Shown here one piece after another: positions 2,401 through 35,486 of a DNA stretch of 64,000 nucleotides. The notes below the pieces were generated by a model. It was given only the letters and a program-made list of their open reading frames with translations, had not been told where the DNA came from and searched no databases. The position numbers and the translations under genes are program-made. The stretch comes from Mytilus galloprovincialis (taxonomy: Eukaryota; Mollusca; Bivalvia; Mytilida; Mytilidae). Positions within the stretch are counted from its first letter, which is position 1; each line of letters begins with the position of its first letter. The stretch is from positions 11,688,441 to 11,752,440 of the forward strand of contig NC_134838.1 of assembly GCF_965363235.1 (NCBI RefSeq). The letters run 5' to 3'.

Positions 2401-2415
2401 TAACAGTAGTAGTGG

Positions 2416-3069
2416 ATGAAAAAGGAAAAATATTTACTACGCAAAATGGAAGAAGAACTTACTACTTTAAAGACAAAGCTGATAGATGTAGAAAATGATC
2501 TGGCAAAGATCGTTAAAAGGCGAACAGAGCTGTTGGAAGAACTTGATAGGCAAGGGGAATCTGCAGATGGTAAACTTAAAAAAGACGTACGACACATCCA
2601 CCATGACGTCACACGTAAAGAAGGTGATATATTTTTATTGAAAAAGAGAATCAAACAAATTACGTATAAACTGGAAATAGCGGCTAAACTAAGTAAACTA
2701 GAACTTGATGATGATATAACTGATTTAAAGAAAATGTTGAATGACGTAAGCGGCCGTCTTAAAGTAAACAAACAAAAAGCAGTTGAGACATTTGACAATA
2801 TTCAAAAAATTCAAGCAGAAGGTGCAGAGCTAGCAAAAGGAATAGAGGAGTCAAGACAAAAAGCAATGGACGAATGTGATATTCGAACAGACAAACTGAT
2901 GGCACGTCTGGATGTGCGACAAGACTTTGTTGACCAAAAGAGAGCTGAAATAAGTGGCATAAGGCGTGCTTCTGGAATTCCTGATCCTGCCGAATTGGCA
3001 GAAATAAGAAGATTGGCAGCATTACATGACTCTGCCCGTGCTGCGAATGATGATGAGGATGACGATTGA
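2416..3069 (+). CDS. coiled-coil protein of unknown family, 217 aa
   Basis: An uninterrupted 217-codon frame, unusually long for this AT-rich window. The protein is very rich in Lys, Glu, Asp, Arg and Leu. It has heptad-like spacing over about residues 5-55 and 60-150 (for example MEEELTTLKTKLIDVENDL), few prolines before residue 188, and an acidic C-terminus ending NDDEDDD. No signal peptide or membrane segment is visible. The start is the first ATG, with an in-frame TAG two codons upstream. A likely splice acceptor ends at 2400, so the coding part appears to sit in a single, probably last, exon. A candidate AATAAA lies near 3664. The composition suggests a cytoplasmic or nuclear scaffold-like rod, but I do not recognise the family and infer no function. 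It could also be an intronless retrocopy. Confidence 0.75.
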   Translation: MKKEKYLLRKMEEELTTLKTKLIDVENDLAKIVKRRTELLEELDRQGESADGKLKKDVRHIHHDVTRKEGDIFLLKKRIKQITYKLEIAAKLSKLELDDDITDLKKMLNDVSGRLKVNKQKAVETFDNIQKIQAEGAELAKGIEESRQKAMDECDIRTDKLMARLDVRQDFVDQKRAEISGIRRASGIPDPAELAEIRRLAALHDSARAANDDEDDD

Positions 3070-9127: not shown

Positions 9128-9604
9128 CTAAAAACAAAACATAAGTTGTTAAACTACAACTAAAGGTTTATTGATTGATAACTGAAATGGTAAAGTATTT
9201 TATTTGTCTATACAAATGGATGACCAACGTCAAAGTCAAGATAATGTTGAAAATTTCCCCTAGTCTTTGGCTTCAGAATTAGTGGACAACTAATTTGTAC
9301 ATGGTAGGTATATTAACGTCTAGTGGCAATTTGGGTATGTATAATGTATTTCAAATTGCATTTATTAATCATAATTATTCCGAGTTTTTTTTATATTTAT
9401 CTATGCCATTTTTTTCAAAATCCGGCAGCTGACCTTTCAGACTCTGCCTATTGAAAAGGAATTACCCCACTTTTTCGATTTAATGATTGATCATTATTTG
9501 AAAATATTTCATAAACATATATTCAGGAGGTGAACAAATTGAAAATATAATAGGTGGGTTCTACAAAATGTTTGCCTGACAACTCTGGGGTCAATCACCG
9601 ACAT

Positions 9605-10480
9605 TTGACTTGTACAACCAGTGGGCCAGATACTCTATCCTGAACCCATTAAGCACATACCTTTGACATTTACAGCCAGTGGGCCTGATACTCTATCCTG
9701 AACCCTTTGAGTACATACCTTTGACTTGTACAGCTAGTGGGCCAGATACTCTATCCTGAACCCTTTAATCATATACCTTTGACTTGTACAGCCAGTGGGT
9801 CAGATACTCTATCCTGAACCCTTTGAGTACATACCTTTGACTTGTACAGCTAGTGGGCCAGATAATCTATTCTGAACCCTTTGAGTACATACATTTGACT
9901 TGTACAGCCAGTGGGCTAGATACTCTATTCTGAACCCCCTTTGTGAACATACCTTTGAATTGTACATCCAGTGGGCAAGATTCTCTATCCTGAACCCTTT
10001 GTGAACATACATATGACATGTACAGCCAGTGGGCTAGATACTCTATCCTGAACCCCCTTTGTGAACATACCTTTGACTTGTACATCCAGTGGGCAAGATT
10101 CTCTATCCTGAACCCTTTGTGAACATACTTTTGACTTGTACAGCCAGTGGACCAGACACTCTATCCTGAACCCTTTGTGAACATACCTTTGACTTGTACA
10201 GCCAGTGGGCAAGATTTTCTATCCTGAACCCTTGGTCAGTGAACATACAATGACTTGTACAGTCAGTGGGCCAGATTCTCTACCCTCTTTAACCCTTTGT
10301 GAACATGCCTTTGACTAGTACAGCCAGTGGACCAGATACTCCATCCCGAACCCTTTACGTAATACCTTTACCTATACAGCCAGTGGGCTAGATACTCTAT
10401 AACAAACCCTTTGTGTACATACCTTTGACTTGTACAGCCAGTGGGCCAGATACTCTATCGGGTCTCTAGGTCTGCTTTCT
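9605..10480 (-). repeat. 58-bp minisatellite derived from an exon end plus its 5' splice site
   Basis: There are fifteen tandem units with spacing of 54-62 bp, counted by the CCAGTGGGC-like core at 9619 through 10438. On the minus strand a typical unit reads AGAGTATCTGGCCCACTGGC, TGTACAAGTCAAAG, GTATGTNCACAAAGGG. The right-most unit (about 10418-10460) is the true 3' end of the Dpy-30 exon, including residues [12 protein letters not shown] and the donor AAAG/GTATGT. The other fourteen repeat this coding end and donor within the intron. Many units keep AAAGGTATGT; some are damaged (for example AAAGGCATGT near 10305). Open minus-strand frames of 67-75 codons across the array are read-through of these units. 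Confidence 0.9.
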
Positions 10481-15289: not shown

Positions 15290-16560
15290 GGCTACCTTTG
15301 ATAAGTGACAAAAAAATGGCAACCTTTGCATGAATTTTCCATACTGGATAGATACCTTTGAATGAATTGCCAATACTAGTCAGCAACCTTTGAATGAATT
15401 GAACATACTAGACAGCAACATTTGAATGGATTGTCCATACTAGATAGCAACCTTTGAATGAATTGAACATACTAGATAGCAACATTTGAATGAGTTGTCC
15501 ATACTAGTTTGAATGAGTTGTCCATACTAGACAGCAACATTTGAATGGATTGTACATACTAGAAAACAACCTTTGAATGAACTGCTCATGCTAGATAGCA
15601 AACTCTGCATGGATTGTTCATGCTAGAAGGCAACCTTTGAGTGAATTGTCCATATTTGATTGCAACATTGAAATGAATTGTCCATATTGAATAGCAACCT
15701 TTTGAATGGATTGTCCATACTTGATAGCAACCTTTGAATGGATTGTCCATACTAGATAGCAACATTTGAATAAGTTGTCCATACTAGATAGCAACCTTTG
15801 AATGAATTGTACATACTAGAAAACAACCTTTGAATGAATTGTACATACTAGAAAACAACATTTGAATGAACTGCTCATGCAAGATAGCAAAATCTGCATG
15901 GATTGTTCATGGTAGAAGGCAACCTTTGAGTGAATTGTCCATATTTGATTGCAACATTGAAATGAATTGTCCATATTGAATAGCAACTTTTGAATGGATT
16001 GTCCATACTTGATAGCAACCTTTGAAAGAATTGTTCATGCTAGATAGCAACCTTTGAATGAATTGCTCATGCTAGATAGCAACCTTTGAATGAATTGCTC
16101 ATGCTAGATAGCAACCTTTGAATGAATTGCTCATGCTAGATAGCAACCTTTGAATGAATTGCTCATGCTAGATAGCAACCTTTGAATGAATTGCTCATGC
16201 TAGATAGCAACCTTTGCATGAATTTTCCATACTGGATAGCTATCTATGAATGGATTGTCGATACTAGTCAGCAACCTTTGGATGAATTGCCAATACTAGA
16301 TAGCGACCTTTAAATAAATTGTCCATACTAGATAGCAACCTTTGCATGGTTTGTCCGTACTAGATGGCAACCTTTGCATGAATTTTCCATACTGGATAGC
16401 TACCTATGAATGGATTGTTGATACTAGTCAGCAACCTTTGAATAAATTGTCCATACTAGACAGCAACCTTTGAATGAATTGCCAATACTAGCTAGCAACC
16501 TTTGAATGAGTTGTCCATACTGGACAGCAACCTTTAAATGAATAACCATAACATACAGCA
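15290..16560 (+). repeat. 32-bp satellite array, about 40 units
   Basis: The unit is TAGATAGCAACCTTTGAATG followed by AATTG(C/T)(C/T)CAT(A/G)C. Six consecutive near-identical units start at 16041, 16073, 16105, 16137, 16169 and 16201, fixing the period at 32 bp. A block of about 170 bp beginning GAAAACAAC at 15562 recurs at 15851. A second block (GATAGCTA(C/T)CTATGAATGG) recurs about 160 bp apart near 16235 and 16397. This shows later segmental duplication in multiples of the unit. Degenerate units continue to about 16770. Because 32 is not a multiple of three, the 119-codon minus-strand frame here is a by-product. Confidence 0.9.
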
Positions 16561-16799
16561 ATTTTTGAAATGATTGGCCATAACAGATAACCTTTGAATG
16601 AATTGACCATAAAAGATTGCAACCTTTAAATAAATTTGCTGTCACTGCTGACAACCCTACGATGAATTTTCTGTTCCTTTGAATAAACTGTCTGTAAAAG
16701 ATACCAGCCTTTACATGGAGTTGCTGTAACAGATAGTTTAAATGATTCGGCTCTAACTGATGGCAACATTTAAAGAATAACAAATCTAATCATTTAATC

Positions 16800-22605: not shown

Positions 22606-22846
22606 TCAATCTTCTTTTTTCGTCTTCTTCTGTGGTAAAAGGTTATCTAGGGGCAGTACTTCTGTGAAGATTAGGATTCCTATAAATACCAACAAGGTAC
22701 CACACCAATGTGTTGGTGTGAATGGATTCTGGAAATACCATATAGAAAATATAAGACTAACGAACTTCCTGAGTGTAACGACTAATGTCACAGTTAACGA
22801 TGAACACTCTGTGGTTAGGATGAATACACTTCTTATACATATATAT
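22606..22846 (-). CDS. SLC35B4: SLC35B4 last coding exon
   Basis: Acceptor TTTTAACCAG before 22846. The frame after one split base reads YICIRSVFILTTECSSLTVT, then LVVTLRKFVSLIFSIWYF, QNPFTPTHWCGTLLVFIG and a C-terminus ending QKKTKKED before TGA. This covers the last two membrane helices and a cytosolic lysine-rich tail, of the kind that acts as a retrieval signal in this family. The exon needs two bases from the preceding exon (CA + A = Gln expected), but exon 24306-24381 leaves one base. Confidence 0.93.
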
Positions 22847-25800
22847 CTGGTTAAAAGTTAAGGACAAATTTAATAATTCAATATGATTCTTGGAATAATA
22901 TAAACCCTGTGTTAGTTCTTAAACATTAATCTTGAAGACAAGACCTTAGATTGATTAATGTTGGTTGTTTAACATTCAATGGCAAATATTGCATGCACGA
23001 GAACAAATGAACATAAATACAGTAGGTAGGTGCTGTTAAAAGCCGTCCAGGATTAAGGTGAGGGAAATTTGGACTGCTACTGGATGATGGTATTATCAAT
23101 ATATAGATAACAATTACATAGTAGGGGTAGCTTAATTTTCTTTTAGGAACACCATTTTAACTGTTGTATTTCCATTTTAATTTTTTTTAGGCTTCCCTCA
23201 GCTTTAGTTTATGTGATAAAAAAGACCACTAGAAATGGTATCAATCTATTTTCCTTTCATTTCTAATCTGTTCAAACTTTAATAGACTGTACAATACAAC
23301 ATGCATTCAGAACATTAGACATTCCAAAAGGGTGGCACCTCAAATAGTAAATTGTTTTCTCATTTTAGCAACTGAAGTTTTTTCATGAAGTACTAGTTAA
23401 CTACCTATTCTTATAAATACAATTTTATAAAATAGTACTTTTCTTTCAAGAGAACTGAAGACCTAATTCTGAATCTAAAAAAAAACCACGCATATTGAAT
23501 TTGTTATTTAGTACAGACAACTTGGACAATACAAATTCTTTTTATTTCAAAATGGTCTTCATTTCAGTTAGTTCAGGGAAAATCTCCACTGTCATTGTGG
23601 ATTTACATGGTCTTTACTCAGTTGTATCCCTTACCTTTTCTATTTCTTCTAAATGTTCAGTAATTATTCAAAATCTTTTAGATGTAATCTTAATTAGCAA
23701 CTGTTTTTGAATGGTCGATGATTTCACAACCATCTTGTCATCCATTGGTTATTTGACAATTATTGTTTTTACTGAACAACATTTGTTTAATCTCCAACCA
23801 TTTTAAAAGGATACTGTGTTATAACATTGAAAATCAGGAAAAACCACAATCTTGGTAAACTTATTCCAAAGGCTAAATCTAATGGTACTAAAAAAGAATA
23901 AATCATTAAATTAAAATGATAATTCAAGTGTATGAAATGATCAATGACAATAGGTCAAATGAAGCAAAAATTGTGTAATACATATTTGGATGATATAATA
24001 CTTTCTAAATAAAAGTGATAAATGATGCTTATATTTACATGTTACAATTAACCTCAATTGTAAGTTAAGAAATGATTTTTAAATATCAAGTGACACACCA
24101 TTCAAATTATCAACTTATGCACTCTAAATGAGCAGTTTATTAACATTATAATGTAAGAGATTAAAATAACTTATAATTGTTACACAACTTATCTATGACA
24201 TAATGTCTTATAATAAATCTGTCCTCCTAGTATTTCATGCATATCTAACCCATGACATAACATTTTTCAGACTAACATTAGAATGAGTTGTATATATGAT
24301 CATACCTGAATTATTAAATTTCTGTATATGACTGTATATGTCTGTTGCTAATAACAGAAAACCTGGTAGAGGTAGAGCATGCTGTAAAAATAAAATTATC
24401 AACTTTTATTATATTGACAACATGAAATATTTCTTAACTGCAAATCATAACTTCTGAAATATTGAAATCAAGATCAACCATTTATACATTTTTGAAAGTC
24501 ACATAAGAAATCTAGTTACAATGACAAGGTACAGTGTTATATGAAATAAAAAATTTGTAAAGGTTCCGCGGAACCCAGTGTCTCGCCTACTTTTGCTGTT
24601 AATTGCAGGCTCAACAAAAATGAGGGAAAAAATCAATAAAAATATTCCTCTTGATACTATATTTTAATTGTAAGAAGCTTCTGTACAAGTTTGGTAAAAA
24701 TCCAGGATAGTTTATGAATCTAATAAATGTTTGAAAAACTTTAACTGCAGGCTGTATGTAATGTTCACTGAAAGAAAAACATTTATAAGTAAAATACAGA
24801 TACACAGGTACAAAATTTTAACAAAATTTCTATCTAAATACTTGCTTTTGATCATAAACAAACTTCTGTCCAAGTTTGGTACAAACCCAGAATAGTTTAA
24901 GAAAGTAATTAAAATTTTAAAAACTTTAACCACAGAGTGAATGTAATGTTTCCCGGCAGAAAAACTAAGTCCATTTATAAGTAAAATACAGAAAAAAATG
25001 GAATTTTATTTTTACAAAATTTATTTTCTGGATACTATTTTATGATGATAAACAAGCTTCTGTCCAAGTTTGGTAGAAATCCAGAGTAGTTTAGGCAAGT
25101 TATTAAAATTTAAAAACTTTAACCACAGAGTGAATATTTGTGGATGCCGCCGACGGCGATGGAATGTAGGATCGCTATGTCTTGCTTTTTCGACTAAAGT
25201 CGAAGGCTCGACAATAAAAATAAAGTTGAAGGATCAACAATAAAACCATTAAGTCTTTTTCAAAATGAGTAGTTCATAGATCCTAGTCAATCTCATAATT
25301 CCTACTCCAAGACAATAACTCCTGTCATACTCATTAATACTGTGTACATAGTAGAGAGGCAACACACACAAATTTAGAGATTTTTGTGAGACCAAGCCAG
25401 GGAACACATATGCAATCAACTGCACTGACTAGATTCAAACATGCTTCTACAAGATAAATGAGTAACTCAACTAGTTCCAACTTAGTGTATGAAATGACTT
25501 CATATAAACAAGAGTGCACACACTGAAATGTCTCGCCTTCTTTACTAATCATTGATATTATGTTGATACTCCTAAATATAAAGCTTTATTACAACTGTCA
25601 CATAAACTTAACATGAACCATGAAAATGAGGTCAAGGTCAGTCATGTACAGCTAACAATGCTTCCATACAACAAATATAGTTGACCTATTGCTTATAGTT
25701 TAAGAAAATAGACCAAAACACAAAAATTTAACACCGTGAAAACCAGAAAACCAGGTCAAGGTCAAATAAAATCTGCACGATTGACATATAGATCATAAAA

Positions 25801-28800
25801 TATTTCCATACACCAAATATAGTTGACCTATGACATATAGTATAAGATAAAAAGACCAAAACTCAAAAACTTAACTTTGACAACTGAACCATGAAAATGA
25901 GGTCAAGGTCAGATGACATCTGCCCGCTAGACATGTACACCTTACAATCATTCCATACAACAAATATAGTAAACCTATTGCATAAAGTATGAGAAAAACA
26001 GACAAAAACACAAAAACTTAACTATAACCACTGAACCATGAAAATGAGGTTAAGGTCAGATGACATCTGCCCGCTAGACATGTACACCTTACAATCATTC
26101 CATACAACAAATATAGTAAACCTATTGCATAAAGTATGAGAAAAACAGACCAAAACACAAAAACTTAACTATAACCACTGAACCATGAAAATGAGGTCAA
26201 GGTCAGATGACACCTGCCAGTTGGACATGTACACCTTACAATCATTCCATACAACAAATATAGTAAACCTATTGCATCAAGTATGAGAAAAACAGACCAA
26301 AACACAAAAACTTAACTATAACTACTGAACCATGAAAATGAGGTCAAGGTCAGATGACACCTGCCAGTTGGACATGTACACCTTACAGTCCTTCCATACA
26401 CCAAATATACTAGACCTATTGCTTATAGTATCTGAGATATGGACTTGACCACCAAAACTTAACCTTGTTCACTGATCCATGAAATGAGGTCGAGGTCAAG
26501 TGATAACTGTCTGACGGGCATGAGGACCTTGAAAGGTACGCACATACTAAATATAGTTATCCTATTACTTACAGTAAGAGAGAATTTAACATTACAAAAA
26601 ATCTGAACTTTTTTTTCAAGTGGTCACTGAACCATGAAAATGAGGTCAAGGACAATGGACATGTGACTGACGGAAACTTTGTAACATGAGGCATCTATAT
26701 ACAATATATGAAGCATCCACGTCTTCCACCTTCTAAAATATATAGCTTTTAAGAAGTGAGCTAACACCGCCGCCGCTGCCGCCGTAGCCGCTGCCGCCGG
26801 ATCACTATCCCTATGTCGAGCTTTCTGCAACAAAAGTTGCAGGCTCGACAAAAAGGGAGGGTTTCTGACAAATACAATCTATATTTTAGTTTTAATTGTG
26901 TTTTGATCTAGCATTCAGTACCAGTGAGTAACATCAGATCAATAGTTTGTCTTTTTGTTAGTTTTTGTGCTTAGATATGGAATGATGTGTCAAGCCATAC
27001 AAAACACTATCTCTTGTTATCATGCAACTATTCCCACTGAATAAATGTAAAAAATATATCTGCTTACATTGAAGAACAGACTTTCTTTTGGATGTTTCCC
27101 ATACTGTTTGTAGATCCCTTCTTGGTAAATACCCATTCCAGCTGTCATAAACAAAGCAGCCGTCAATATGAATATACCTGAAATATAACATGTTCATAAA
27201 GATATATGCATGTACTGGTTTACCTTGGAGGAGGCAAAGTGTTCTGTGTTTTGGAGTTCATGTGAAAGAGGATTATCTGATTGCTTTACAAGACTGGGTA
27301 ATACTTCAGATTTTTTTCTGTTATCCTTATCAAACACATTTTTTTTCTATTCTCATCACATGCATTTTAGATGTTCTTTTTATCAGCAAACATAACATGA
27401 GGTCATGCATAAGAAAATACCATGATACAGCTGCAGATTCAATATAGAAGGTTTTTACAACTTTAAAAAGTAGCTTTAATTTCTTACATTAATTTTAAAG
27501 TTAAAAAATGTTTTAAATTTCATCTAAAATCTCTTATATAAAAGTTGCATAATGCATATATGATACGAAGGGGAAATTGTGCTGCCACTTACCAGTAAAC
27601 CATATTGCTAAATCATATAGTAGGTCTCCTGTTGATGTTGCTTTGTTATCTTCCTGGAAAAAGAAAATGTAACATGGTTTGTCAGGTCTGAACATGAAAA
27701 CAACAGAAATTAGAGACATTATAAGTCTTTAAAGTAAAATATGCTGTGCTTACAATGCAAATAGACAATGCAAATAGACAGACAGATAATGTATGAAAAT
27801 TCCAACTATCTCCCCTTTAACATATTTGACTGAGATTTAATTCCTTAAGCATGTCCTAAGGTGGTGTTGTGCAACTGTGTAAATGTTTAGTCATTATTGT
27901 ACAGCTATTTAGGAAGAGTTTATTTGACAAGGCAATGAACAGACCTGGTAATTTGGGATATATACAAAACAATAATAATAAACAATACTGTACCAAAGAA
28001 TGATCCCAGTTACGGTGGATTCATTATTATTTGTTGGATACTAATTCCGGTGGATTTTATGGGTACAAATGAACCACGAAATTAAGTGTTCAATGACAAA
28101 TTTCCTCTAAGGTTATATGCAGACTTTGTCAAAACCATGAAATCAAACATTCAAGAAAATGCAAGTTTTGTTCAATCTATAAAAATTGGTACATATGTAC
28201 CCACAAAAATAAATGAATCTACAGTACTATAAGCAAGGCTAAAAGTACTTAACATGATTATATCAAATGATGCATTCTACACTCCAAAGCTATTACACTT
28301 TGATAGCAGTACATTTAACATTGAGACAAATAAGAAACAGATTGATCATTGAATGAAAAGACATACAAATATTTCTTTTTGCCAAAAATAAACTGATCTT
28401 TTTACGTTGTTGAAAAAATGCATTCCAAAGATTGTTGAAATAAACTCATATACTTACAACTTGTTGAGCTGATGCAATAGTACATAGAATTATCCCAACT
28501 GTAATCAACACAACAGAGATATACTTCCCTGTAGTATATCTAGGTAATAGAAATACATATATAAATTAAAATCAAATGTGTTAGTTTTTAACTATGTTCA
28601 TACATTAAAATTCAATAGACCATCTACTGTAGATAAGTTGAGAATATGAGACTTCTTCAATAGAAAACATAAAATAAAGTTAATTTCAAAAACTTTCAAT
28701 TTTTGAACCTCAACTGTCTTTCTTACTGACCAGTCTTTGCTCTTACTTCTAAATGCTGCAATGCAAAGTAACAAGAAAATATTAATTCTAAAATCTTTGT

Positions 28801-31800
28801 TTTGAACCAGCCTGCAATCCGAAAACCATTATTTCCTGCACTCAAGGGAGGAGGCTACTATAGGAAGTAAAATATAAAAGATTTTTATCTAAAAATTGTA
28901 ATGATCCAAAAAAAGATTCACATGTATAAATTGTATGGTACCTGCAGCGTTATTTCCTGAAATTTAATATTTGTTGTTTTTCCAGATGTAAGTAAGTAAG
29001 CAACCAACATTTAAACTTTTTAAAACACAAGCTTGTGTTGATATGAATTCAATACTAAAAGTGGCAGATTTCTAACCAATAAGCTCTGTTTGAATTTATA
29101 ACAAAATCAACACAATAATGGTATTTTAGCATACCGGTACACAGAAAGAATCTTTTAATGTTATGTTTGCAATATTATCTATCACTATATCAAGTGTAAA
29201 ACTGTCCTATAATTATTAAAATATTATGATATTGAAGTTGAGATTAAATATTAAAAAGAAATAGATATTGTTTATTACTCTTCAATGTTTAGACCTTATC
29301 CATGGGTCATAATAGTGCCGTGACCAGGACGGGTAAGATCAAAACAAATTAATATACACCAACACTATTAACTTATTAATCAATGTATATCAGCTCAAAC
29401 CAAAGAAATCAACACAAACAGACTAACAATATGTAGTGAGTGTTTTTGGGTGAAATGAAATACATATGAAATGATAAACCCAACAATATGGAGGCACACA
29501 TTAGAAATAATGTTAGCACACAGTTTAGCTTTCAAATATAAAACTTTGTACAGAATATCACAAAATTATGATTTGTATTTTCTTAGACCTGCATCACTGT
29601 TGAGAACATACAGATCATAAGTGACTGATCTGTAAACATGTAACCAAATATCAAGAAGCACTGATTTATAGTTGTTGAGAAAAATCCTATTGAAACCTGT
29701 TACATGTACAGACAAATAAACAGTAACAGACAAATGAAGGTAAGCCAGTAAATCCGTTGGAGCAGGCATCAATAATGAATCGAAAAATGTATATCTACAT
29801 GTAAATCTAGGTACATCAAGCCAATCAATCAATTTATATCCATATTAACATTAAAAGAGGCAATGAATTTAGATCCACATTAACTGGCACAAATTAGTAC
29901 ATTGTTGACACTCCTGCTGCCAAAAACAGCCTACCGCAGTCTAGCTTTTTTACTGCCTTGAGCAAATGATGAGGCAAGGCAAAAAGCAACAGTCAACCAG
30001 GCTTCATCAACCAAAGATACAGAAATTAACCAAGGTATATCAACATGCACAGTATTGATCTATCATCCAGGTAGGGTATATTAACACAAACAAAAACAAA
30101 TTCGTTATTAGATGCTAGTTTTGATCACTAGTATTTAAGCGATCTAGTTGTCCAAAAATATTAATCACAAGTCTTACCTTTTCTTCATGATAATCATTCC
30201 TAATGTCAAATTAGCTATCAAGGATCCCTGTAAAATTTAATATTAAATATTCAAAACACAGGATGATTTATTTTTAAATTAAACTAAAATTGATAAAACT
30301 AAACAAAAAAAACCAAAAAATTCTCTCAAAATCACTTATTTTATTTTCACTGATATTGACAATTGCCAATGAGAAGGCAAGATGGATTTATCTGTAGAAG
30401 AAATACCAACAAACAAAAATGGCACTTGCAGTGAAAATAGGACATGATCAAAAATCATGTATACACTTTTGTTTTTACAGAGAATAAAAAAAAAAATTTA
30501 ATTCATTTTTTTATGCATGGCTGTTTGATCCATTTACTGACGGACTGACGGAAGGACAGACAGAGGTAAAACAGTATACCCCCCTTTTTTTCAAAGCGGG
30601 GGTATAATAAAATTAATAATGAATTGATCTCTTCTGAGAAATAAGTATAAGTTTGGGTTTGATTGATAAAGATGGTTAAGATTTAAAAATTGATGTACCA
30701 AAAGATAAAACATTTGACCACTTAATAGAATACTTACTGCTCTAAATATCATCTGTAAAGGCAGAGAGACATTGAATGACAAGGAATAATTATTGGCAAC
30801 TTGTACTACAAAGAAGAATGCCACCATTACTGTGTAGATGCTGAAAAATAGGAATGTTAGCATGACATTCTATACTTACTGCCCTGAATACCATCTGGAG
30901 TGGCATAGATATATTGAATGAATATGCCGCATTATTGGCCACTTGCACAAGAAAGAAAAGTGACACCATCGTTCCATATATACTGAAAAATACAAATACT
31001 GAATTTTCTAATTTTCCATTAAATAAAAATGTAATCCTCTTTGTATATATGCATGCACACATTTATTCTGCTATTCTTCAATAATCTATGAAATTGTTTA
31101 AATTTACAATAATCATACATTGTCATACATAAACTTACATTGTAAGTGCATCAAATTTAAAGGAAAAGGTACGATAAGGACTCTTTCTACAATATATTTT
31201 TGAAATTATGAATCTGTTCTCTTTATATATATTGTATGGTGTTATAAGGTCAGCACATGCGTGGGTCAATAAAATGTTACAAGTAATATGCTGAATTGTG
31301 TGGTGAAGGCATAAATTTAGAACATTGGGTGGAAGCAATAGATTGTGAGATAAATTTTTTAAGTCATAACATAACACATGTAGATTGATTTTTCTTTTCT
31401 TCTAAATTTGTATAATCTATTTAAAAGATCCATTGTATTAAATTTATCGAGATTTTGTAAAATTTGAAAAATCTCATTTAGGGGGAAACTCTTTATCATA
31501 CCTTTTCCTTTCTAAAGTGTATTCTACTCTACCAAATATGTTATTTTTTCAGACACACCAGCATGATAGATAGAAAATACTTAAATTCTATAAATGAGTT
31601 GTTACTTTCATGATATTAAAAAGCACCACACTATAATTTTAAGCAACCTCGGTAAAAGTCTACATACAGGAGGAACTAATACCAGAATGAAATTAAAATT
31701 TTGATAAATAAATGTTGTTTTTATTTATTGTGTTGTTCTGTGCTAGTTCAGCTGCAGTCTCATTGACTCTCATCCATATTTTTATAACATGCATTTTTTT

Positions 31801-34800
31801 TCAAAATAAGATAAAATCTAGGTTTTGTGAGTACATGTGTTTTTATCATATACTAAGCATAGGAAAAAGCAGATGGGATAACAAAAAATAAGTGAAAAGC
31901 TGAAACTATAAGAAGTAGACATCCGTAATAATCAAAACTTTTTTAAAAGTATCAAATACATGTAAGTACTTTAATATCATATTATCATTTGATTTAGCTC
32001 TCTAGTAAAGATATCACGTTTACTTTAACCAGTTTTTCTAGTCTTTCATTGTTAGGAAAAATTGCAATATTTAAATTATCCTAATTCTAGTAATTTACAT
32101 ATATATTTTCTGAACACCGATTAGTTTACAAAAAGAACTCTGTATTACACATGTATATATTAAAGCTGAAGTGTTAGCATTAAGCATTGAAGTCACCCAT
32201 TTGATTAAATCTACATAGTGTCAAATAAAATTATTATTAAATTTTAACTTGTGATTCATACCGAATAGGAATTTTTGGTTTTATCATTCCGAATTTTGCT
32301 GTGAATATTAAACCTTCTACTGCAATGAAGGCAAACTGCATAAATGTTATCAGGTTTCCACAGGTAGGAAGATCACTGAAAATACAAAAGTACTATATTT
32401 ATACACAACTAATATATTTTTCATACAGTGTCTATATACATGTATGTTAAACTATCTGGACCCATAGTATGTATGATCTATGTCTGGAACTTTGTCAACA
32501 GTTGTTATGGTTTGGTAGTGGGATTTTTATTTACAATTTTTGTGAGTTTTTTGTGCTTTGAGTCTATCTGATGAATCGAGCCTTTTTCAACTGTTTTTCA
32601 CAGTTTGTTATTATGTTGTTCTGCCACTCCTCTGTCCCAGGTTAGGTTAAGCAGTTGCAAACAGGTTTCTATATACAGTATTCCGCTCAAGGAGCCTGTA
32701 ATTCAGTGTTTGTCATTAGTTGCAGTTTATCATATTTATTTTTTGTTTATTGTCCAGTTCATAAATAAGGCTGTTCTCTTTGAATTGTTTGATATTTATC
32801 GTTTCACCTTTAATGGTATACTATAAAAGTTTGCTCATTGTTAAAAGCCATAAGTGACTTGTACATCCCTGTGCTGGATTTTCTCACTGTGTTGAAGACC
32901 CATGTATGGCCTTCAGCTGTTTTCTGCTCTTTGGTTGGGTTGTTGTCTCTTTGACACATTCCCAATTTCCATTTTCAATTTTATCATTTGGTATTGGTGG
33001 ATACACTGGACATTTCTCTTATTAGCAATCATTCTACATCTTATTTTTATTGACATTTAGTCAAGTTTACACATGAAAACTGTATGTTAACCTTAAAATT
33101 CTTTTTTGTTTGTAACATTTTCCATCTGACTGAACTTATTTTACTTTAGACAAAAATTAAATGTTAATGTAGGACATTCGTCCTGAACATGCATGAAGTA
33201 TTTGCCACTGGATGCTAAGCAACCAACAACCAATCAATATATAGGACATCAGACCTGCCAACTTTTGAAAATCTCCATGGGGGATTTATGCGCGCAACCA
33301 GATTTTTAAGGGTTACAATTTATGCGACATTTCTGTTTGCTTTGTTTTTACTCCTAAAATAGTCTCATTTCTCTTCTTTTTTCCTTTTGGTATACAAATG
33401 ATGAGCTTGAAAATTTACATGATTGATTGACTGTTGGTTGCTTAACGTCCAGTGGCAAATATTTCATGCATATTCAGGACGAGAACAAGTTCACAATAAA
33501 TACAATAGGTAGGTTGTTGTAATAGAGGCCATCTAGGATGATGGTCGGGGAAATTTGGACTGCCACTGGAAAATGAGGGTATATTGGATAGGGACAGGAA
33601 TTTTGCCTTGCAACAGGCCACCTACGGACCCCTCAAAGAGTTGTTGCAAGGGTTCTTAACGTGCAAAGAGCGTGGCACTCTCTTTACACGAGGCATCGGA
33701 TTTAACGTCCCCAATCTGACCGGACGTGACTGCGAACTTGATACATTCCGCACAGCCAAACGGACGCCCCACTTCGGCAAGCGTTTTACTGCCGGTTGGA
33801 AGAAGACCAAGTGACCATATTTCTATTCCCCAGTCACCCTTGGGGAACGAAAATTTACAAAATAACTGAAGAATAGAGAAAAATGGCATTAAAAATAAAG
33901 GATTCAAAGTAGAGACCCCCCTTTTCCCCCTCCAAAGACCTTCTTATCTATGAACCATAACTCAAAAGACCTAAACCTACATGTCCTAAAGTTAGGATGC
34001 ATACAGATTTTGATTTAGTCATCAGTATTAATGAGAAAATGGATAAAATTTGAGTTATCTTTCTTTGTATTCAGAGGTGCTCTTACCGGCGGAGGCTTAT
34101 ACAATAACACAGTAGAAGTGATTACAAAATGGCGTCGATTTTAAATCAACAGACACACATCGTATGGTTTCAAAAATTAAACGGATTTCAAGATAAACGA
34201 TTTTTTCTTGAGAGTTCATTACAGTTCTCATCTTTTAGTTAAAGTCATAAGAAACCTCAAATCAAAATAAAATAATGATTATGTTTTTTTATAACTCAAC
34301 GGATAGTTTTCATTATAAAACTTATGTACATAAACTTTTTTCTGAAGAAAATTCTTTAATTTATTCATATTTAGAAAAAGTTTACTTTATTTAAATTGCT
34401 TCCTTCCAGGAAGCAATTCCCCTGACATTTTCCGTATGCAAAGTGACCTCAGTGTGACCCATCTCGTAAAAATCTGGTGATCACAATACGCATGGATGTC
34501 CTTAAAATAGACTATTATCTGAATTTACATGTTAAACATGTGCTCAATTTCCATGCTTTTTTGTTGATTTTTTGTCGATTGTTGACAAACAGGTGACAAT
34601 CGTTAAACTTCGGCTTCAACACGAACTTTAATTACCTGTCATATTTTGACAACAACACTGACCGATGGAAAAAAAAATTGACGATTATACGAAATTTACT
34701 AAGTTTATGATGTTTATGATGTTTGTATGCATTGGTTCAAGAATTGGAAGAACATTATTTTTCACCGGTCACTCGTTTCTTATGACTTTAACTAGGATTT

Positions 34801-35486
34801 TGTCATGGAACTACGGTAAACGTTGCAAATTGTGCTTGTATGATAAATTGATTAAAATTGAAAGGCTGTCTGACATGAGGATAGTTATGGCCCATTAGGT
34901 GATTCGATTACATACGACAACTAATTATGACACCTGTTGTGACCGTTAATTAGGGTAGGGTCGTTAACTTGTCATAATATGTCCCCAGGTAAAATTATAG
35001 ATTTTTTAAAATTGATCTGAAAATCTTCAAAATGGGTAACCAATATTTTTTTCGGGTATATTTGGTGAAAATCGGGATTTTGACTAGTTTTACGATCCCA
35101 ATATCAGGATTCGGGTTGAGGGATGAAAATCGGGATGATACCACAAAAATCTGGATAATTGGCAGGTTTGGGACATAGTCTTGGCATTTAAGGTACATGT
35201 AGCACCTTCCTCACAAAACAACAATCAGTGCGATCAAGGCAAATAGACCGTATTGGTGAACGAACACAAGGCGAAAATGGAGTGAGGATAAACAGAGCTC
35301 ATGCCTCACAATTTTTTCATACACATTTATATATATGCACTATATTCTGTATTTATATGCACCCCCCTCCTTTTTCTATTTTCTAAAATCGTTTTTCAAA
35401 GTAATGTACCTTATTAAATATTCTAGGAATACAACATTACTGCAACAACCAAGGAACACAAGTGAGATGGGGATTGCAGGATGCAT
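22606..35486 (-). CDS. SLC35B4: SLC35B4-type UDP-xylose/UDP-N-acetylglucosamine transporter
   Basis: A minus-strand gene whose exons were recognised individually by protein similarity and consensus splice sites. Coding exons in order: 35486-35410, 32375-32262, then either 30982-30880 or 30840-30738, then 30227-30178, 28539-28458, 27653-27593, 27177-27068, 24381-24306 and 22846-22606. Known SLC35B4 proteins exchange UDP-sugars across Golgi/ER membranes as ten-helix nucleotide-sugar transporters of about 330 aa. The exons here give about 305 aa. Diagnostic segments are LVFLGCCSNVVFLEYL (first helix), MITE-free helix text such as QVANNYSLSF, LPLQMIFRAGSLIANLTLGM, GMGIYQEGIYKQYGKHPKES, HALPLPGFLLLATDIY, and VFILTTECSSLTVTLVVTLR near the C-terminus, which ends in a lysine-rich tail. 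All phases agree up to 24306. The exon expected between 24306 and 22846 (about 73 nt, including a MWLYLI-like helix) was not found. Confidence 0.9.
22950..23092 (+). repeat. partial SINE tail, family of 33421-33830
   Basis: TTGATTAATGTTGGTTG, CAATGGCAAATATTGCATGC and GGGAAATTTGGACTGCTACT match the tail half of the element at 33421. Only the tail half is present, as expected for a 5'-truncated SINE on the minus strand. It lies in the last intron of SLC35B4. Confidence 0.65.
24306..24381 (-). CDS. SLC35B4: SLC35B4 exon (HALPLPGF segment)
   Basis: Acceptor TATTTTTACAG, donor G/GTATGA. It reads HALPLPGFLLLATDIYSHIQ then KFNNS plus one base, matching the conserved luminal loop and helix that follow the GKH...E motif exon. 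It starts in phase 0 and ends in phase 1. Skipping directly to the 22846 exon would shift the frame and reach a stop within a few codons. Confidence 0.9.
24555..25217 (+). mobile_element. hairpin-ended element with ~190-bp tandem core
   Basis: The left end contains a perfect 14-bp palindrome, GGTTCCGCGGAACC, then CAGTGTCTCGCC. The core has three diverged units of about 190 bp starting with CTTCTGTCCAAGTTTGGTA-like text at about 24678, 24865 and 25050. The right end is GGATCGCTATGTCTTGC, then the perfect hairpin TTCGAC-TAAA-GTCGAA, then GGCTCGACAA. The same end design is seen at 26857. It sits in an SLC35B4 intron and has no ORF. Confidence 0.75.
25508..26857 (+). mobile_element. hairpin-ended element with 147-bp tandem core, copy 2 (complete)
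   Basis: The left end is ACAAGAGTGCACACACTGAA ATGTCTCGCC. The core units are exactly 147 bp apart over the best-conserved stretch (CTGAACCATG at 25884, 26031, 26178 and 26325); outer units are diverged. The right end has a GCC/GCT-rich tract at about 26768-26800, GGATCACTATCCCTATGTCG, the hairpin TGCAAC-AAAA-GTTGCA and GGCTCGACA. No transposase is present. A tandem core plus hairpin 3' end resembles the non-autonomous Helitron/Helentron-related 'pearl' elements of bivalves (inference from memory). Confidence 0.8.
27068..27177 (-). CDS. SLC35B4: SLC35B4 exon (GIYQEGIYKQYGKH segment)
   Basis: 110 nt; acceptor ATATTTCAG, donor AAT/GTAAGC. It reads IFILTAALFMTAGMGIYQEG then IYKQYGKHPKESLFFN. The GKH.KE(A/S)LF(Y/F)N signature is characteristic of SLC35B4. 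It starts in phase 1 and ends in phase 0. Confidence 0.95.
27593..27653 (-). CDS. SLC35B4: SLC35B4 exon (loop and start of a membrane helix)
   Basis: 61 nt; acceptor CTTTTTCCAG, donor G/GTAAGT. It reads EDNKATSTGDLLYDLAIWFT plus one base. The polar N-terminal part is the variable loop; the WF(T/L)G helix resumes in the next exon. Phases 0 and 1 fit both neighbours. Confidence 0.93.
28458..28539 (-). CDS. SLC35B4: SLC35B4 exon (membrane helix, VGIILCT segment)
   Basis: 82 nt; acceptor ATTACCTAG, donor GTT/GTAAGT. It reads YTTGKYISVVLITVGIILCT then IASAQQV, matching the KYTS..LVSVGIFICT helix of SLC35B4. Its first base completes an Arg codon begun in the 30178 exon. Confidence 0.95.
30178..30227 (-). 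CDS. SLC35B4: SLC35B4 exon (GSLIANL helix)
   Basis: 50 nt; acceptor AATTTTACAG, donor AG/GTAAGA. It reads GSLIANLTLGMIIMKK plus two bases, matching the GSLIANM.LG..ILKKRY segment of the family. Phase 0 at its start allows splicing from either of the two upstream exon versions. Confidence 0.95.
30738..30840 (-). CDS. SLC35B4: SLC35B4 alternative exon 3, downstream version (A)
   Basis: 103 nt, acceptor CTATTTTTCAG, donor GCA/GTAAGT. It reads IYTVMVAFFFVVQVA then NNYSLSFNVSLPLQMIFRA. This aligns with the helix holding V.NNYAL.LNI.MPL.MIFR in SLC35B4. Phase, length and the completed Arg codon (CG + C) are the same as for version B at 30880-30982. With 39 bp between them the two cannot both be spliced in normally, and inclusion of both would shift the frame (206 nt). 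Confidence 0.93.
30880..30982 (-). CDS. SLC35B4: SLC35B4 alternative exon 3, upstream version (B)
   Basis: 103 nt, acceptor GTATTTTTCAG, donor GCA/GTAAGT. It reads IYGTMVSLFFLVQVA then NNAAYSFNISMPLQMVFRA. By direct comparison 23 of 34 residues are identical to version A. Differences cluster in the helix core (NNYSLS versus NNAAYS, SLPLQMI versus SMPLQMV). Both frames are intact, so neither version looks like a decayed copy. Confidence 0.93.
32262..32375 (-). CDS. SLC35B4: SLC35B4 exon 2 (CGNLITF helix)
   Basis: 114 nt; acceptor GTATTTTCAG, donor CG/GTATGA. It reads DLPTCGNLITFMQFAFIAVE then GLIFTAKFGMIKPKIPI plus CG, matching the PGCGN(I/L).TF.QF.FIAVEG...PAIPIRYY segment. The split Arg codon becomes CGC or CGT with the two alternative downstream exons, so the junction residue is unchanged. 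Confidence 0.95.
32590..32990 (+). repeat. dispersed repeats in SLC35B4 intron 1
   Basis: Pieces of two families. About 32640-32840 matches 5690-6035 (GGAGCCTGTAATTCAGTG). About 32855-32990 holds GTGTTGAAGACCCATGTATG and TGTTGTCTCTTTGACACATT, which recur near 41785-41870 and, weaker, at 39660-39760. Confidence 0.65.
33421..33830 (-). mobile_element. tRNA-derived SINE-like element
   Basis: Read on the minus strand, the head is at about 33830 and the tail is (AATC)n at 33421-33435. The head has an A-box-like TTGCCGAAGTGGGG (33767-33780) and a B-box-like GTTAAATCCGATGCC (about 33692-33706). The spacing is somewhat long but workable for RNA polymerase III. The tail half recurs at 22950-23092 and, in inverse orientation, near 33183-33245. 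The 76-codon plus-strand frame inside is a by-product of its higher GC content. Confidence 0.6.
34239..34791 (+). mobile_element. TTAA-flanked inverted-repeat element, copy 1
   Basis: It is bounded by TTAA on each side with terminal inverted repeats of 13 bp (AGTCATAAGAAAC ... GTTTCTTATGACT). The internal near-palindrome TTGCTTCCTTCCAGGAAGCAA lies near 34400. The second copy at 51572-52153 is in inverse orientation with the same ends. It has no transposase, so it is MITE-like. TTAA target sites suggest mobilisation by a piggyBac-type enzyme (inference). It lies in SLC35B4 intron 1. Confidence 0.85.
35410..35486 (-). CDS. SLC35B4: SLC35B4 first coding exon
   Basis: 77 nt; ATG at 35486-35484, donor AG/GTACAT at 35409. 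It reads MHPAIPISLVFLGCCSN then VVFLEYLI plus two bases, matching the first membrane helix (LVFAGCCSNVIFLELL) of SLC35B4. The start was chosen because the family's N-terminus is equally short and an in-frame stop lies upstream (TAG in TTATTATAG). No promoter element was recognised upstream. Confidence 0.93.

Follow-up and report, generated by a model that had tools for sequence, protein, structure and literature searches.

The window analysed here, a stretch of 64,000 nucleotides of Mytilus galloprovincialis DNA (GCF_965363235.1, contig NC_134838.1, positions 11,688,441 to 11,752,440), carries on its minus strand an intact gene of the SLC35B4 type, which runs from 35486 to 22606 and comprises ten coding exon positions. 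The third of these is occupied by two adjacent exons, here called 3A and 3B. Homology and splice signals served to rebuild the gene model one exon at a time, with GT-AG boundaries at all introns; exon 6 was picked from three candidates compatible in frame and splicing, on the strength of its acceptor and its GTAAGT donor. The parts of the gene are the following:

35410..35486, minus strand: exon 1, from the start codon onward (gene model and homology)
32262..32375, minus strand: exon 2, whose 3' end is the CG of a split Arg codon (homology and gene model)
30880..30982, minus strand: exon 3A, 103 nt, IYGTMVSLFFLVQVANNAAYSFNISMPLQMVFRA, an open frame with acceptor TATTTTTCAG and donor GCA/GTAAGTATA
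30841..30879, minus strand: intron of 39 nt between 3A and 3B (sequence)
30738..30840, minus strand: exon 3B, 103 nt, IYTVMVAFFFVVQVANNYSLSFNVSLPLQMIFRA, an open frame in the same phase as 3A
30178..30227, minus strand: exon 4 (homology and gene model)
28458..28539, minus strand: exon 5 (homology and gene model)
27593..27653, minus strand: exon 6, loop region (fit of splice sites and frame, without a homology match)
27068..27177, minus strand: exon 7 (homology and gene model)
24306..24381, minus strand: exon 8 (homology and gene model)
23815..23887, minus strand: exon 9 (homology and gene model)
22606..22846, minus strand: exon 10 and stop, C-terminus ...KKTKKED (homology and gene model)

The spliced protein counts 328 amino acids with either 3A or 3B, and its probable assignment to the SLC35B4 type, proposed by an earlier sequence-only reading of the window, holds against both the gene model and Pfam. 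The UAA profile matches residues 4-311, nearly its full length, with E-values of 2.5e-110 for isoform A and 2.4e-111 for isoform B and scores of 368.9 and 372.3 bits, compared with a curated cut-off of 26.2. Identity to human SLC35B4 is 58.6% over 331 aligned positions. The protein ends in KKED, a dilysine endoplasmic reticulum (ER) retrieval signal of the KKxx type (for the meaning of the motif, see PMC9368800 and PMC3718619); C-terminal dilysine signals are common to the mussel protein, human SLC35B4 (KDSKKN) and Drosophila Efr (KKVE) (PMC9368800, PMC3718619). The transporter probably carries activated sugars (nucleotide sugars). The splice variants described for mammalian SLC35B4 encode proteins of 331 and 231 amino acids (PMC9368800) and are not an exon swap of the kind proposed for the mussel gene.

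A profile search of the genome brought up further UAA loci, two of which look SLC35B2/B3-like and SLC35B1-like, both labels being provisional. One version of the exon corresponding to exon 3 was seen in the SLC35B2/B3-like gene, and in the SLC35B1-like gene this exon was seen only in part. Elsewhere in the genome (C3:53035599-53036501, G000), a full-length UAA match lies within a single uninterrupted frame of 389 codons, an intronless gene of the SLC35B type.

Exons 3A and 3B share 72 of 103 bases and differ at 31, and 23 of the 34 encoded residues are identical. The acceptor TATTTTTCAG is common to both, as is the donor GCA/GTAAGTAT; in each, the first base is the last of the split Arg codon and the 3' end falls on a codon boundary. 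The earlier reading had placed at 30738-30982 two intact 103-nt exons with this number of identical residues, near-identical acceptors and donors and an Arg completed from the upstream split codon by either copy. Each of these points was borne out exactly, and the interval corresponds to 3B, the 39-nt intron and 3A on the minus strand. The duplication was also detected independently by Tandem Repeats Finder (30730-30992, period 142, 1.9 copies, 74% matches, 0% indels), and Pfam UAA recognises the two exons separately, at 29.5 bits for 3A and 33.6 bits for 3B. No third copy or relic of exon 3 was found in the window, where the best ungapped match elsewhere reaches 49 of 103 bases; compared with the 72 of 103 between the copies, this argues that the pair is not a product of chance.

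The features used to predict mutually exclusive exons in PMC3228551 are present: equal length (103 and 103 nt), AG and GT splice sites, the same phase, frames free of stops that yield 328 amino acids, and homology of the encoded parts (identity at 23 of 34 residues and at 72 of 103 bases). On the fly X chromosome, just 90 of 16180 other exons show these features (PMC3228551). That the pair might be an assembly artefact or a false duplication is extremely improbable: nothing was seen in favour of it, the 31 differences in 103 bases are far beyond what allelic or assembly duplication would leave, and the 245-base stretch holding the pair occurs at one locus in the 1.38-Gb genome.

Five transcript forms were translated, containing 3A, 3B, both exons, both exons with the intron retained between them, or neither. 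The full protein of 328 amino acids is obtained only from the forms with exactly one of the two exons, so that the either/or logic put forward by the sequence-only reading survives the frame test. Premature stops arise after 114 amino acids with both exons, after 127 with both exons and the intron, and after 66 with neither, and each of the three precedes the last exon junction by over 400 nt, a position from which nonsense-mediated decay would be expected. Double inclusion does shift the frame, as had been claimed; the accompanying figure of 206 nt can be made more precise, in that one extra 103-nt exon enters the message and gives 206 nt instead of 103.

The same translations also bear on a different account of the exclusion, in which the either/or outcome is real and is enforced mainly by frame shift and decay, or by regulated RNA structure and splicing factors, the short intron being incidental. 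An early stop is present in each of the three wrong products that were translated, as an enforcement by decay would have it. This account is nevertheless rather unlikely, for the 39-nt intron, whose likely branch point follows the donor at 23 nt, falls below the steric threshold discussed below, and steric exclusion suffices.

The intron between 3A and 3B is far shorter than those of a genome survey that took in 66 further introns, the shortest of which measures about 141 nt. The survey covered the CCT chaperonin and P450 families together with the transporter gene, and introns so short that one profile match bridges them may escape it. In the CCT genes, 75 of 79 rows were used, the four left out being C6:42370915 and C6:42370486 (which share a single open frame of 567 codons) as well as C3:96889212 and C2:97844481; 44 neighbouring pairs qualified by a profile gap within 12 positions, giving gaps of about 157-7598 nt, with lengths that are approximate. 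Twelve P450 pairs hand-picked from 97 matches gave gaps of 305-2869 nt, and five more, omitted for one shared open-frame length each, had gaps of 240 nt or more as judged from their listed positions. The nine other introns of the transporter gene span 415-3034 nt, and a single profile match encloses one more intron, some 141 nt long. The last emerged from a check for excess length in 28 of 176 rows, four of which exceeded 20 nt (21, 45, 51 and 141); the excess of 51 nt belongs to a long stop-rich stretch and is not a 51-nt intron, and that of 141 nt has the look of an intron of roughly this length.

Within the 39-nt intron lies one element that resembles a branch point:

30856..30860, minus strand: CTAAC, branch-point-like element (consensus; putative role)

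Its adenine, at 30857, is nucleotide 23 of the intron, 23 nt from the donor of 3A and 16 nt short of the 3' splice site of 3B. Wherever the branch point sits within the 39-nt intron, its distance from the donor is below 50 nt. The published threshold for steric interference is about 50 nt between donor and branch point, and 57 human exon clusters (9% of 629) fall below it (PMC5740500); in OGDH, the distance from the donor to the branch points is 25-41 nt (PMC7969005). The suggestion that 39 bp is probably too short to splice is thus supported by the intron survey and by the published threshold.

Given an intron of 39 nt and a predicted branch point below the threshold of about 50 nt, steric exclusion is the simplest mechanism. 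U1 bound at the donor of 3A and U2 bound at the branch point of 3B, 23 nt apart, would collide, and the joining of 3A to 3B would be blocked. Exon 2 would be joined to either 3A or 3B, and exon 4 then to whichever had been chosen. Double, retained-intron or skipped products would meet an early stop and be removed by nonsense-mediated decay, which would act as a second barrier. In the choice itself, the two near-identical acceptors would compete for exon 2, a competition presumably tuned by factors that are not visible here. It is very probable that exons 3A and 3B of this SLC35B4-type gene are true mutually exclusive exons, which arose when a unit of 142 bp was duplicated in tandem long ago and are kept apart by steric exclusion. 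With its 39 nt, the intron would offer a very compact natural test of this mechanism.

A candidate regulatory structure bears on the part of the competing account that invokes RNA structure:

31042..31081, minus strand: segment of the upstream intron with a predicted pairing to the 39-nt intron (30841-30876)

The predicted pairing has an energy of -25.7 kcal/mol, the best of 850 window placements apart from the antisense of the intron itself, and the best partner is intron sequence just upstream of 3A, a point in favour of a structural control of the exclusion. Four of the 850 overlapping placements reach that energy, two being the own antisense and two the same site. When ten region pairs were tested, nine lay within one standard deviation of shuffled sequences; the 39-nt intron paired with the 300 nt upstream of 3A gave a z of -3.0 (60 shuffles). 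As predicted, the pairing would mask the acceptor and the branch point that serve 3B, along with a portion of the 3A donor. However, it is a prediction from a single genome, and the next-best site elsewhere, near 27100-27250, reaches -25.2; with so thin a margin, the pairing may be a splice regulator or may be due to chance. A search with Rfam gave no match within the window.

Had one of the two exon copies drifted unconstrained, a dN/dS of about 0.5 or more would be expected. The comparison of 3A with 3B gives a dS of about 1.2, a dN of 0.24 and a dN/dS of about 0.2 (Nei-Gojobori, rough at about 23 synonymous sites), and both copies therefore appear constrained. When 30 differences were placed at random in the 102 whole-codon bases, 13310 of 20000 placements gave a stop; at least 23 residues were kept in 2 of the same 20000, neither of which was free of stops. 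Measured against human SLC35B4, 3A and 3B are each identical at 18 of 34 residues; among the 11 sites where they differ, the human residue is that of A at 3, that of B at 3 and a different one at 5. Neither copy looks degenerate, because the human protein matches the two equally. These observations make it quite improbable that one exon is a relic or barely used, with effectively one protein made: both copies keep the frame, the splice sites and the residues conserved in the family despite about 1.2 synonymous changes per site, and Pfam recognises each. What can be said for it is that the acceptor and donor sites of 3A and 3B are alike, so that usage is not predictable from them.

The pair would go back to an old tandem duplication, the copied unit of 142 bp being made up of exon and intron. 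A and B resemble each other more closely (23 of 34 residues identical) than either resembles the human protein (18 of 34), which suggests, if rates are similar, that the duplication took place after the split from the vertebrate line; by the same crude dating, it appears old enough for heavy silent change. A prokaryote genome collection, searched for orthologues that contamination could have introduced, gave 54 pattern matches and no relatives.

By alignment to human SLC35B1, exon 3 covers transmembrane helix 3 (TM3) together with the beginning of TM4 (TM4a), with approximate helix limits, and each isoform would accordingly possess its own version of TM3 and TM4a. The alignment to this distant paralogue starts at residue 72 and is interrupted by a single gap within the exon. 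The isoforms differ at eleven residues, namely 67, 68, 71, 72, 75, 82, 83, 84, 88, 90 and 95, the first three of which lie outside the SLC35B1 mapping. Residue 84 (Y in A, L in B) aligns with SLC35B1 L105 and residue 90 (M in A, L in B) with Y110, and Q93 and R97, the same in both isoforms, align with Q113 and K117; the NN pair at 80-81 is likewise the same in both. In the structure of SLC35B1 Q113F, L105 and Y110 touch the introduced phenylalanine and make contacts that close the cavity on the lumenal side; in the lumen-facing state, K117 contacts a phosphate of an ATP analogue (PMC12267056). Part of the swapped segment thus adjoins, by sequence alignment, the lumenal gate of SLC35B1, and the earlier proposal of a helix swap near the substrate path agrees, on this alignment, with the structure paper.

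Since residues next to the gate change and the equivalents of Q113 and K117 and the NN pair stay, the isoforms most likely differ in gating and in substrate preference or rate, and not in the ability to transport. A more specific possibility, offered tentatively and more doubtful than not, is that the exon switch determines the nucleotide sugar imported into the ER, the choice lying for example between UDP-xylose or UDP-GlcNAc on one side and GDP-fucose on the other. If true, the supply of glycan building blocks in this lineage would be set by tissue or stage through the splicing of one carrier, and not through two carrier genes. Two naturally occurring gate variants of a protein that is identical elsewhere would moreover reveal the residues that set selectivity or rate.

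The folds and substrates of SLC39A14 and SLC25A3 are unrelated to those of the SLC35B4-type transporter. Both are, like the product of the mussel gene, solute carriers, and both have mutually exclusive exons (PMC5740500). The human clusters with potential steric interference (PMC5740500) resemble the mussel pair in their homologous exons, equal length and phase and a distance of less than 50 nt between donor and branch point, and some of them also share the frame shift on double inclusion; they belong, however, to other genes, and in the mussel the whole intron measures only 39 nt. The term SLC35 is absent from the main text of that survey of human mutually exclusive exons. Exons 4a and 4b of OGDH likewise form a two-exon cluster, in which a spacing of 25-41 nt between the upstream donor and the branch points enforces the exclusion; these branch points are, however, of the distant type, with a pyrimidine tract of about 65 nt behind them (PMC7969005), whereas the branch-point-like site of the mussel lies 16 nt from the 3' splice site in a very small intron; furthermore, OGDH encodes an enzyme and the mussel gene a transporter.

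A further parallel is the Schistosoma mansoni GDP-fucose transporter GFT, also a nucleotide-sugar transporter, in whose transcripts mutual exclusion of exons 1 and 2 is reported (PMC3718619). It belongs to a different subfamily and the exclusion concerns first exons; the accessible portions of that paper state neither homology between them nor a swap of membrane segments. The earlier reading knew of no described case in the family; the literature searched agrees with this for a duplicated-exon swap, and exon exclusion as such has a precedent among nucleotide-sugar transporters in the schistosome paper. No duplicated-exon swap was found in the accessible portions of the literature on mutually exclusive exons in SLC35B4, SLC35 and nucleotide-sugar transporters, and those of papers on SLC35C2 and SLC35B3 splicing in human cells mention no duplicated exon pair. 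Among the mollusc titles listed, none refers to such an exon pair, although 'mutually exclusive exon' occurs one or two times in three of these papers, and a published mollusc annotation of the gene may exist elsewhere. The kind of arrangement, mutually exclusive exons, is thus known, and the gene appears to be new to it as far as the literature was searched.

The window also contains several repeat arrays. Two of them lie in intron 7 of the transporter gene, at 25643-26498 (a 147-bp unit repeated 5.9 times) and 24675-25135 (a 185-bp unit repeated 2.4 times), and there are long minisatellites at 15319-16636 (32-bp unit, 41.6 copies) and 9604-10459 (58-bp unit, 14.6 copies). A profile scan of 50 of the 62 open frames of 75 or more codons included a frame of 218 codons on the plus strand at 2413-3066, which has an acidic C-terminus and weak matches, below the cut-off, to the coiled-coil-type families GAS and Fez1, and which is perhaps the last exon of another gene.
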